DNA of 42,006 nucleotides from assembly GCA_024638965.1 (NCBI GenBank), contig JAHEJI010000024.1, positions 1-42,006 on the forward strand, written 5' to 3'. The translations under genes were made by a program, and so were the position numbers. A model generated the notes under the pieces. It was not told where the DNA came from. It saw only the letters and a list, made by a program, of their open reading frames with translations, and did no database searches. This DNA comes from Planctomycetaceae bacterium (GTDB taxonomy: Bacteria; Planctomycetota; Planctomycetia; Pirellulales; Pirellulaceae). Below, piece by piece: positions 28,115 through 32,609 of this stretch; the first letter of the stretch is position 1, and the number at the start of each line of letters is the position of its first letter.

Positions 28115-29353
28115 ATGAGTCATCGACCCAAATATGGTTTGGTTAGCAGACGTCTGCTTACATTTTCGGTCATCGCCGTGATGGTTGGCGGTGTCTGGAA
28201 CGGGAGTTTTGCGGAAGAACTGACTTCCGGAACCAGTTCCCGACAGGCCAAACAGCAGGCTTTGCAATCGATTCCTTTTCAGGAATTGAATCAACAAACG
28301 CAAATCAAGATACGGGACGTCCTGCAAAAGCCGAGTATTTATCGCCGTTTACCGGTGACCATAATCGATATTGATCCCGATTATTTTGTCTTCCTGGCCC
28401 GCCATCCAGAGGTCGTTGTCAATATTTGGAAGATTATGGGCGTCACCAGAATGACCACGACCCGAACCGGTCCGTTTACCGTTTCGACGAATGATGGTGT
28501 GGGTACGGTCAGCAATGTTGAACTGGTGTACGGAACCAACAACCAACATATTTTCTACGGCGAAGGGACCTACGAGGGGCCGGTGCTGAAACGAAAACTC
28601 CGCGGCGAATGTGTAATGGTGTTGAATACCAACTATCAGAAATCTGCTACGGGAAAACCAACTGCAACCAGCCAGCTAGACGTATTTTTGAAAGTTGAAA
28701 ACGCCACGGCAGGATTGATTGCCAAAACGCTCACTCCGATTGTCGGCACCACCGCAGATCATAACTTTGTGGAATCACTTAACTTTCTGCAGCGGCTGAA
28801 CGAAACGACAGTCAAAAATGGCGTTGGCGTGCAACGAATGGCTAATCGCTTGACAGACATTAATAACGAAACCCGACAAAAATTTGTTGATGTTGCCGGA
28901 CTTGTTTCCAACCGTTCGGGTGGCAAGCCTTATTCGCGAAACGCGACCCCTGCTCGTTCGAGTTACGAAATCCCTGCGTATCCACCGAGTAGCTATCCGA
29001 GTCAGAGTTCAAGCCAACCGTTAAACACGGCGCCGGTTACGGTGTCGTTTGGACGAGGCGAGTACAATTATGGTCAACCTGACGGAACGCAGAATTATGG
29101 GGCGGCCCAGGCGGGATACATGACCCAACCGCAGCCATCTGCATATCCTTATCCGCCTCGGGAAAACAATGCGAGCCAGGGACATCAACAGAGCTATCCG
29201 GTTCATGGCATGTACTATCAGCAACCACAAAACGTGAATCGCTCCAACAACAGGGCAATGCCAGGATTTTCAAACAACCGAATCAGGACGATTCAAGCGG
29301 TGCCGACGTACCAAGCACCCACCTATCCAGCCCAGAACTACTACCAACGTTGA
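28115..29353 (+). CDS. Secreted protein of unknown function, Pro/Tyr/Gln-rich tail
   Basis: 412 residues with a signal peptide (about 1-33, ending GSFAEE). The folded part (about 45-270) contains conserved-looking segments such as RRLPVTIIDIDPDYFVFLARHPEVVVNIW and GTYEGPVLKRKLRGECVMVL, and resembles planctomycete-restricted hypothetical secreted proteins, but I cannot name a family. Residues about 285-412 are a low-complexity Pro/Tyr/Ser/Gln/Asn stretch. It ends in TGA and meets the TPR gene tail-to-tail with 8 bp between them. No transcription terminator is visible in that short gap. Confidence 0.75.
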   Translation: MSHRPKYGLVSRRLLTFSVIAVMVGGVWNGSFAEELTSGTSSRQAKQQALQSIPFQELNQQTQIKIRDVLQKPSIYRRLPVTIIDIDPDYFVFLARHPEVVVNIWKIMGVTRMTTTRTGPFTVSTNDGVGTVSNVELVYGTNNQHIFYGEGTYEGPVLKRKLRGECVMVLNTNYQKSATGKPTATSQLDVFLKVENATAGLIAKTLTPIVGTTADHNFVESLNFLQRLNETTVKNGVGVQRMANRLTDINNETRQKFVDVAGLVSNRSGGKPYSRNATPARSSYEIPAYPPSSYPSQSSSQPLNTAPVTVSFGRGEYNYGQPDGTQNYGAAQAGYMTQPQPSAYPYPPRENNASQGHQQSYPVHGMYYQQPQNVNRSNNRAMPGFSNNRIRTIQAVPTYQAPTYPAQNYYQR

Positions 29354-29361
29354 ACGCGCCC

Positions 29362-29691
29362 TCAATGTCCGTGGCTTCTGGCCAAGGCCTCTTCTGCTTT
29401 TTGAATGTAGATCGGATCTCGCGTTCCTTCAAAAGCGCGTTGATACGTCACGCTCAGCGCCGCCATGTTGAACGGATCGTTCGGCTCAAGCTCGACGGCT
29501 TTTTCGGCGTGCTCGCAGGATTTTGCGTAGTCTTCCATTTTGTGATAGAGCACCGAAAGGGCCAAATGAGCGCGAGCGAAACTCGGATCGATGTTTAAAG
29601 CTTCCTGTAACTTGGCGATTGCCTCCGGATATTTGCCTTCGACTTTCAATTGATCCGATTCTTGTTCAAGTGCCAATACTTGTTCGTTCAT
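29362..29691 (-). CDS. Small TPR-repeat protein
   Basis: 109 residues with two to three tetratricopeptide repeats: YPEAIAKLQEALNIDPSFARAHLALSVLYHKMEDYAKS and a second CEHAEKAVELEPNDPFNMAALSVTYQRAFEG unit, showing the characteristic A8, Y/L11, A20, P32 pattern. No signal peptide, so probably cytosolic and a protein-protein interaction module. It lies downstream of ppdK on the same strand, but a strong terminator (29719-29757) separates them, so it is probably transcribed on its own or by readthrough. Confidence 0.86.
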   Translation of the reverse strand: MNEQVLALEQESDQLKVEGKYPEAIAKLQEALNIDPSFARAHLALSVLYHKMEDYAKSCEHAEKAVELEPNDPFNMAALSVTYQRAFEGTRDPIYIQKAEEALARSHGH

Positions 29692-29718
29692 CCGTCTCTT
29701 TCGTGTCTAGTATTTCAA

Positions 29719-29757
29719 TAAAAAAAGAAAGCCAAGCCCATTATTCAATGGCTTGGC
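29719..29757 (-). terminator. Intrinsic terminator of ppdK
   Basis: On the minus strand GCCAAGCCATT pairs with AATGGGCTTGGC (one bulge), followed by TTTCTTTTTTTATT. It is about 100 bases beyond the ppdK stop codon and upstream of the TPR gene. Confidence 0.88.
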
Positions 29758-29855
29758 GTTTAGAGCAACGGTTAATCTAACGAGGTAACAAAGTCGTCTC
29801 CCGACTTGCAAAACTCACGACTTACGACTGTCTGGGACCGCCCGACCACCCGTGC

Positions 29856-32609
29856 TTATTTTTTGCCGTTACTTTCGATCGCCGCTTGAGCCGCGGCCAA
29901 TCGGGCGATTGGAACTCGGTAAGGCGAACAGCTCACATAATCAAGTCCTGCGCGAACGCAGAATTTGACCGAATTGGGCTCGCCACCGTGTTCACCGCAA
30001 ATGCCGCATTTGAGTCCCGGACGAGTTTTGCGGCCATTATTAACGGCCAATTCAACAAGTTGGCCAACGCCACTCTCGTCAATCTGTGCAAACGGATCGA
30101 CTTCAAGCATTTTCTTTTCCAGGTAGTCCGGCAAAAACGTAGCGACGTCATCGCGGCTATATCCGAATGTCATCTGAGTTAAGTCGTTGGTGCCAAAGCT
30201 GAAAAACTCCGCCGACTCAGCAACTTTGTCGGCGGTCAACGCCGCGCGAGGAATCTCGATCATCGTGCCGACGAGATATTTAACTTTTGAGTTTTCCTTT
30301 TTTAGAATCTCGTCAGCGACTCGGCGAACGATTTTCTCCAGGTAGTCCAATTCGGCTTTCGTTCCGATCAGGGGAATCATGATTTCCGGAATGACCTTGA
30401 TCCCTTTTTTGCTGACCTTTACAGCCGCCTCGATGATCGCCCGCGTTTGCATTTCACAAAGCACAGGAAAGGTAATACTCAAGCGGCAACCGCGATGGCC
30501 AAGCATCGGATTGAATTCATGAAGTGCCTCCACTCGTTCCTTGATCTTCCTGAGTGGGACATCCATTTCGGCAGACATCTTTTTCAGGTCTGCCTCAGTT
30601 TGCGGCAAAAACTCATGCAGCGGAGGATCAAGCAGGCGTACGGTAACCGGTTTGCCGTCCATCGCTTTGAAGATCCCTTCGAAGTCCTTTCGTTGATGCG
30701 GAAGAAGTCTCTTGATCGCTTTATTTCTTTCTTGATCCGTATTGGCAAGAATGAAACGACGAACATCCGTGATGCGATCACCTTCAAAAAACATGTGCTC
30801 CGTTCGGCAGAGTCCTATGCCTTCGGCACCAAACGCAATCGCCGCCTTCGAATCGTTGGGCGAATCGGCATTTGTGCGGACGTTGATCTTGCGAAACTTG
30901 TCTGACCAATCAGAAACCGTCTGGTACAACTTGAAAATCCAGTGCTTCTGAGCGGATTTGCTGCCTTCAACCAAGGCGGCGACGACAGGCGATGACTCGG
31001 AAGGAATTGTGCCTGCATAGACTTTTCCGGTAGAACCGTTGAGTGAAATGACGTCGCCTTCTTTGAACGTTTGTGAGCCAACCGAAACGATTTTTTTTGC
31101 GTAGTCGATCTTTAGATCGCCCGCTCCGCAGATGCAGCACTTGCCCCAGCCACGGGCAACAACGGCTGCGTGCGAAGTCATTCCGCCGGTGCTGGTGAGG
31201 ATTCCTTCGGCAGCGCTCATCCCCCCGACGTCTTCCGGCGAGGTTTCGTGTCGAACCAGGATGAGCTTCTTTTCGGGATGCTTGCTTTTGATTTTCTCTG
31301 CTTTCTTCGAATCAAAGACAATTTCACCGACGCCAGCGCCAGGGCCGGCAGGCAGACCCGTACAAATCGGATTTTTCTGGGCTTCGATTTTGGCATCAAA
31401 AATCGGGAACAGCAATTGTTCGAGGTCGTGCCCGGTTACCGTTTGCAAAGCGGTCCTGGAATTGAGCAACTTGGGCAACTTCGCGCCGGTGATTACATCG
31501 AAACCTGTTGCCATTTCGACTGCCCACCGAACGCCAGCTATTCCAACTCGCTTGGCATGTCGCGTTTGCAGCATGTACAGCTTGCCCTGCTGGATCGTGA
31601 ACTCGACATCTTGCGGATATTTGTAGTGTTTCTCAAGCATAGCCATGGTCTTAAACAACTGCTTGCCCGCTTTGACAAGTCCCGGATCGGATTCGCTGAT
31701 AAGTTCGTCAAGGTTCCGAGGGGTGCGAATACCGGCAACCACATCTTCGCCTTGAGCGTTGACCAGATATTCACCCATCGGTTTAGCTTCGCCCGTCGAG
31801 CCGTCTCGGGTAAAGGCAACTCCAGTCGCACAGTCATTGCCCATATTGCCGAAGACCATGGTTTGAACGTTGACGGCGGTACCGAGCAAGCCCGTGATCT
31901 TGTTGATGATTCGATATTTGACCGCTCGCTCCGTTTGCCATCAATCGAAGACGGCATGGACCGCGTGCTCAAGTTGCTTCATTGGGTCTTGCGGAAAGTC
32001 GGAACGAACGTGCTTTTTGTAAATCTTTTTGTATTGACCGACGAGCTCTTCAAGCTGTTCTGCGGTGAGATCCGTGTCTTCGGCGGCTTTGTACTTTTTT
32101 TTGATCGTGTGCAGTGCTTGCTCAAAATGTTCGTGATGGAGTCCAGAACTTGGGCCCATCACGACGTCGCCGAACATGTCGATGAATCGCCGATAGCAAT
32201 CCCAGCCCGCTCGTGCGTTTCCGGTTTGTTTGATGAATCCGTAAACTGATTTGTCATTCATTCCAAGATTCAAAACGGTGTCCATCATTCCCGGCATTGA
32301 TTGAGCCGCACCTGAACGGACCGAAACGAGTAACGGATTTTTGCCGTCACCCAGCTTTTTGCCTTCGAGTTTTTCGAGTTTGCTCAATTCCTTTTTGACT
32401 TGCTGCATCATCTCTTTTGGGTACGCACCTGTCTTTTCGTAGATCCCGCAGGCCTCGGTTGAAATGGTGAAACCAGGAGGAACCGGGACGCCTGCGTTTG
32501 ACATTTCTGCAAGGTTAGCGCCTTTGCCGCCGAGCAATTCTCGCATTGAGCGATCACCATCGGTCATGTTCTTGCCGCCGCCATAAAAATAGACGTATTT
32601 CTTAGCCAT
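29856..32609 (-). pseudogene. ppdK: Pyruvate phosphate dikinase interrupted by an in-frame TGA
   Basis: Interconverts pyruvate + ATP + Pi and PEP + AMP + PPi. The frame spans 918 codons including stop, and everything except codon 223 looks intact: N-terminal ATP-grasp domain (KGANLAEMSNAGVPVPPGF, RSGAAQSMPGMMDTVLNLG), phosphohistidine domain with catalytic H480 (GGMTSHAAVVARG), and the PEP/pyruvate barrel (FFSFGTNDLTQMTFGYSRDD, GICGEHGG). Codon 223 is TGA (31943-31941). The frame is the same on both sides, reading ...AVFD-stop-WQTERAVKYR...; the family has FxSW there, so a Ser codon TCA has probably become TGA by one transversion. Start ATG 32609 with AAGG about 9 bases upstream. The gene may be a recent pseudogene, a sequencing error, or read through; downstream reinitiation looks weak. 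Confidence 0.9.
31941..31943 (-). other. In-frame TGA within ppdK
   Basis: The only lesion found in ppdK. The bases on both sides keep the protein frame and the conserved FxSW-like context. TGA also serves as the normal stop for aceE, holB, trpC and the aminotransferase in this window, so a reassigned code is unlikely. Confidence 0.85.

Follow-up and report, generated by a model that had tools for sequence, protein, structure and literature searches.

Pyruvate phosphate dikinase (PPDK) is represented by the protein family TIGR01828 and by solved structures such as PDB 1kbl and 1dik. Single-nonsense pseudogenes in bacteria consist of one stop codon in an otherwise intact gene, with intact copies in relatives. 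For bacterial selenoprotein genes, published practice is to look for Cys at the corresponding site in homologues and for a bacterial SECIS element whose small apical loop contains a guanosine (PMC1088965). The ppdK gene of the window (the whole analyzed stretch of 42,006 nucleotides) resembles each of these systems in part. Its two halves jointly span the PPDK family almost end to end, with the flanking motif and the frame kept, but where 1kbl has the aligned residue Ser213 it carries an in-frame TGA. It shares with selenoprotein genes an in-frame UGA in a genome with selenocysteine (Sec) machinery, but differs from them in that a SECIS-like hairpin is missing, the homologues read lack Cys at the site and the UGA is not conserved. 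Similar to single-nonsense pseudogenes, it contains one stop, is otherwise intact and has intact copies in relatives; in contrast to them, the decisive base is only putatively real, and there is no second lesion. A literature search on PPDK combined with pseudogene and premature stop revealed no planctomycete case, as judged by title.

The interrupted ppdK gene

The window corresponds to contig C42 of a draft genome (G000) of 5,717,001 bases in 292 contigs, with a completeness of 88.57% and a contamination of 5.14%. ppdK was identified by its translation, its TIGR01828 matches and its solved relative 1kbl; it comprises 917 codons with one internal TGA and is located on the minus strand at positions 29,856 to 32,609, the ATG being 32,609–32,607 and the terminal stop ending at 29,856. 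The plus-strand TCA at 31,941–31,943 reads as TGA on the minus strand, in frame, at codon 223 (ATG = 1). The 222 codons before it (31,944–32,609, minus strand), i.e., the polypeptide made if the stop is obeyed, encode a portion of the AMP/ATP-binding domain and match positions 1–211 of the 865 positions of TIGR01828 (E 3.3e-83) as well as PPDK_N, a Pfam domain which the TGA splits in two. The intact 694 codons after it, together with the terminal stop (29,856–31,940, minus strand), match positions 213–865 and alone reach 960.5 bits, compared to a family cut-off of 843.45. Since the two halves match consecutive segments of TIGR01828, they constitute one interrupted gene and not two genes. The TGA is hence confirmed as real in the given sequence, in frame and set in an otherwise intact gene, as claimed in the original prediction, whose statement on the 694 intact downstream codons was equally borne out. 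The best solved relatives of the product are PPDKs such as 1kbl; a query with the nearest relative's uninterrupted frame places the stop site at Ser213 of 1kbl. The ribosome-binding site, previously described as good, is present but only modest (AAGG about 9 bases upstream of the ATG), and the proposed terminator was not recovered, as a simple scan of 29,300–29,856 downstream of ppdK found no terminator-like site on the minus strand.

A DNA search of the draft genome found a single copy of the ppdK stretch and no second copy or strain variant, and only one full-length ppdK was present among the matches listed. The 20-base context of the stop was matched exactly in one of 244 loci, namely the window's own, which is a weak result since any other difference spoils the match.

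Relatives, selection and origin of the stop

Loci were fetched for 29 of 59 other genomes searched (L002–L030). At the position of the stop, all 28 readable loci encode Ser, never Cys, and none has a stop; the remaining one, L024, was unreadable at the site, as neither of two motif patterns fits. The nearest relative (G024) is 97% identical over 677 query residues and carries TCA, although its locus (L002) shifts frame at a run of N. This agrees with the claims made from the window alone that the family has Ser here and that a single TCA-to-TGA change suffices. Some of the relatives' ppdK matches contain one stop (e.g., a TGA in G028), which was taken as the terminal stop lying inside the match. 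The closest named protein relative belongs to a metagenome-assembled genome of the Planctomycetaceae (87% identity; among the best 80 loci, with the own genome possibly left out).

Comparison with G024 over 895 codons yielded a dS of 0.168, a dN of 0.009 and a dN/dS of 0.055 (0.031 before the stop and 0.059 after it); the ppdK frame is under purifying selection relative to its nearest relative. Changes were polarised with 17 outgroup loci, 65 changes not being polarisable. Besides the stop, the G000 branch received 17 synonymous and 10 nonsynonymous changes, compared to 17 and 4 on the G024 branch (Fisher P 0.21), and this slight, non-significant excess fits a short time without constraint. 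The nonsynonymous share of the G000 branch (10/27) is below the neutral share, for which a value of 0.74 was assumed (P 6e-5). Because the frame is otherwise intact and subject to purifying selection, any loss is recent; the gene was thus constrained for most of its history, and the stop, if real, is a recent event.

All in all, the TGA most probably reflects a commonplace recent mutation or a mistake of the assembly, and not a special reading of the code. We put the chances at about even that codon 223, a conserved Ser codon, became TGA through a real and recent single-base change in this ppdK, the only one found, and that PPDK was lost. An in-frame stop together with intact homologues in close relatives, by which nonsense pseudogenes are recognized, is what was found here. 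Provided that the base is real and not a consensus error, and that the stop is obeyed, the change would have arisen recently in this strain and the ribosome would stop at the TGA and release 222 residues that form part of the AMP/ATP-binding domain. As the mobile (phosphohistidine) domain and the PEP-binding domain are missing from this fragment, PPDK activity would be lost. Pyruvate kinase, which is encoded on C156 with further matches within a longer frame on C278, would still link PEP and pyruvate and might so compensate.

The distribution of ppdK within the genus bears on such a loss. Among 27 same-genus genomes, 18 contain a full-length match with 81–97% identity to the gene of the window, two contain fragments only (82–84%), and in four a strong PPDK match is lacking. 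The ppdK of three further ones (G005, G011, and G027) shows an identity of only 58–59%, a level also seen in other families. The divergent or absent genes may reflect replacement, loss or old paralogy. One of the genomes with no strong PPDK match, G013, is 94% complete, so that ppdK may be dispensable in the genus and its loss may be tolerated. Against a real mutation speak the otherwise strong conservation of PPDK and the lower-than-neutral nonsynonymous share, which leaves little time as a pseudogene.

Outside the genus, the named ppdK relatives (L034–L045 and L047) show 66–71% identity and are, by title, mostly from Kiritimatiellae or other Verrucomicrobiota. The best matches in other planctomycete genera lie below this range (51–60%), and horizontal transfer is a possible source of the Verrucomicrobiota-like identity.

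Only somewhat less probable than a real mutation is an error of the consensus or assembly, by which the organism would have the Ser codon and an intact ppdK, while a single base of the draft is wrong or stems from a minority variant. One base suffices for this, the rest of the gene is intact and constrained, and the draft consists of many contigs with measurable contamination. On the other hand, the site lies in mid-contig and outside any homopolymer, and the assembly shows no obvious accumulation of errors. The latter was judged on a sample of 25 stretches with 420,668 bases, window included (7.4% of the genome). An ORF-overlap filter yielded 76 pairs of same-frame neighbors, 72 from the sample and 4 from two control loci. 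These pairs were sorted by visual inspection, six of them, whose flanking frames are mostly long, being viewed in full; one pair was tested with a profile. In the sample, two interrupted genes were recognized by eye, namely ppdK and a gene on contig C3 (L178:1664-3475), and the stop of the latter, the sole other one within a single gene, is likely a Sec codon (see below). By eye, the assembly is therefore not littered with broken genes, although a sample of this size could miss rare consensus errors. From the assembly alone, real mutation and consensus error cannot be separated. The Ser codons of the relatives and the constraint data uphold the options listed originally, which were recent nonsense mutation, assembly error and readthrough.

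Reading of UGA in this genome

Among 183 stop-to-stop frames of at least 300 codons in the same 421-kb sample (frames, not checked genes), 60 are terminated by TGA. TGA thus functions as a stop here, and a genome-wide reassignment of UGA was rejected. No suppressor tRNA with a UCA anticodon was present among 63 tRNA genes identified by ARAGORN, with repeats left out; the program was run on loci covering 61 tRNA matches, and as 150 of 310 tRNA candidates were scored the set is incomplete. ARAGORN tRNA genes also form an array of 25 within about 7 kb (C162:41103-48035; L142:5104-12036), including a tRNA-Ile(UAU). Degenerate tRNA clusters with tRNA-UAU have been reported for planctomycetes (PMC4807772).

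Readthrough would mean that the UGA is mostly obeyed and that near-cognate decoding yields a small share of full-length PPDK. The intact and constrained 694 downstream codons are what it predicts; however, a recent change predicts the same, the stop is absent from all relatives read and no suppressor tRNA was seen in the incomplete set, from which tRNA-Sec is missing too. We regard tolerated readthrough as improbable, and as marginally more improbable still that the UGA is partly read by a near-cognate or a stray Sec-tRNA, giving a little full-length PPDK and otherwise the truncated product. If true, such partial reading would be an accident, or would represent a gene of central metabolism at the beginning of UGA recoding.

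Insertion of Sec at residue 223 by the organism's own SelA, SelB and SelD had been called unlikely in the original prediction, which named selA and selB as a check. This check turned out to point toward Sec. SelA is encoded on C181 (L145; E 3.6e-143) and SelB on C166 (L162), where its gene is cut by the contig end. Neighbors of selA are, from reading their translations, moaA/moaE-like and cysteine-desulfurase-like genes. selD on C267 (L170) and the formate dehydrogenase gene fdhA on C128 (L173) each contain one internal TGA, in the contexts SCAG-U and AAT-U-HAPTVAG, respectively, which we take to be Sec positions. No tRNA-Sec scored over the cut-off among the 150 of 799 candidates scored in this incomplete genome. 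Nevertheless, this organism very probably decodes UGA as Sec, and a Sec reading of ppdK therefore had to be tested and not dismissed. Selenoproteins, FdhA among them, have been described for two other planctomycetes (PMC4807772).

The place at which a bacterial SECIS element is expected in ppdK is the stretch directly 3′ of the TGA (31,878–31,940, minus strand). Hairpins were scanned for with a stem of at least 4 pairs, a loop of 3–8 bases starting 16–40 bases from the codon start and a G within the first three loop bases. Hairpins were found after the TGA of selD (TCGCACAGGTTGTGCGA, -8.2 kcal/mol), of fdhA (TGTCGCCGGTCTGGTGACG, -8.5 kcal/mol) and of the gene on C3 (GTTCACAGTTGGTGGAC, -5.0 kcal/mol), whereas the same scan detected no SECIS-like hairpin after the ppdK TGA. 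Across 896 codon positions of ppdK, an equally good energy was reached at 1.3% for selD and fdhA and at 8.3% for the C3 gene; as its hairpin energy is not rare, the case for the latter rests on conservation. Minimum-energy folds agree with the scan. The z-scores from shuffled sequences (selD -0.59, fdhA -0.74, ppdK +1.56) fail to separate even the likely Sec genes, and hairpin position and loop were therefore relied upon instead. RNAalifold returned a common fold of 0 pairs for 19 ppdK sequences.

The ppdK TGA thus shows neither of the two features used in published practice, as the homologues read have no Cys at the site and the SECIS-like hairpin is missing. With Ser in all 28 readable loci and 0 common-fold pairs, the Sec reading was rejected and is very improbable, in spite of a machinery by which UGA is very probably readable as Sec. 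The earlier verdict on Sec consequently stands, although the genes named as its check are present. Presumably, the residue at this position of PPDK is not a redox site.

Just as improbable as Sec is a split enzyme, assembled from two polypeptides after a downstream restart of translation: in-frame start codons exist (TTG at codon 241, ATG at codons 251 and 256), but no Shine-Dalgarno-like sequence was seen by eye upstream of TTG 241 or ATG 251, and the break lies inside the AMP/ATP-binding domain. Readthrough, Sec and restart are all without positive support.

A candidate selenoprotein family with DsbD_N and FG-GAP domains

The second interrupted gene of the sample (contig C3, L178:1664-3475, plus strand) encodes, according to a profile search, DsbD_N and FG-GAP domains in its halves, and its in-frame TGA is directly followed by a Cys codon and then by the SECIS-like hairpin given above; its relatives are L196–L211 and L215–L235. 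A first search gave matches in 26 of 40 genomes, and the TGA-Cys pair was present in all 16 loci fetched, own genome included. Class-wide, 86 of 198 genomes matched, many of them via the FG-GAP part only; 30 loci were fetched and 24 inspected. Of the 21 covering the site, 15 showed TGA-Cys (own genome included) and 6 Cys-Cys, and nothing else occurred. RNAalifold on 14 of the 16 sequences gave 11 pairs, just one of them with a change on both sides.

NCBIfam contained no family below E 0.1 for this gene, and a literature search on selenoproteins with FG-GAP or VCBS yielded nothing relevant by title. In the main text of a 2026 review of prokaryotic selenoproteins (PMC13188914), a term search found no Planctomycet, VCBS or FG-GAP. 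The family with TGA-Cys or Cys-Cys probably represents an undescribed selenoprotein family. A prior listing in the supplementary selenoprotein candidate table of PMC4807772 is possible.

By itself, the ppdK stop, a single codon of a single draft genome, matters little. Its use is as a caution: an in-frame UGA is not a Sec codon just because selA and selB are encoded in the genome, and the genome's own likely Sec genes serve as controls. Of greater importance than the ppdK stop is the DsbD_N/FG-GAP family, whose gene ordinary gene calling would split in two.
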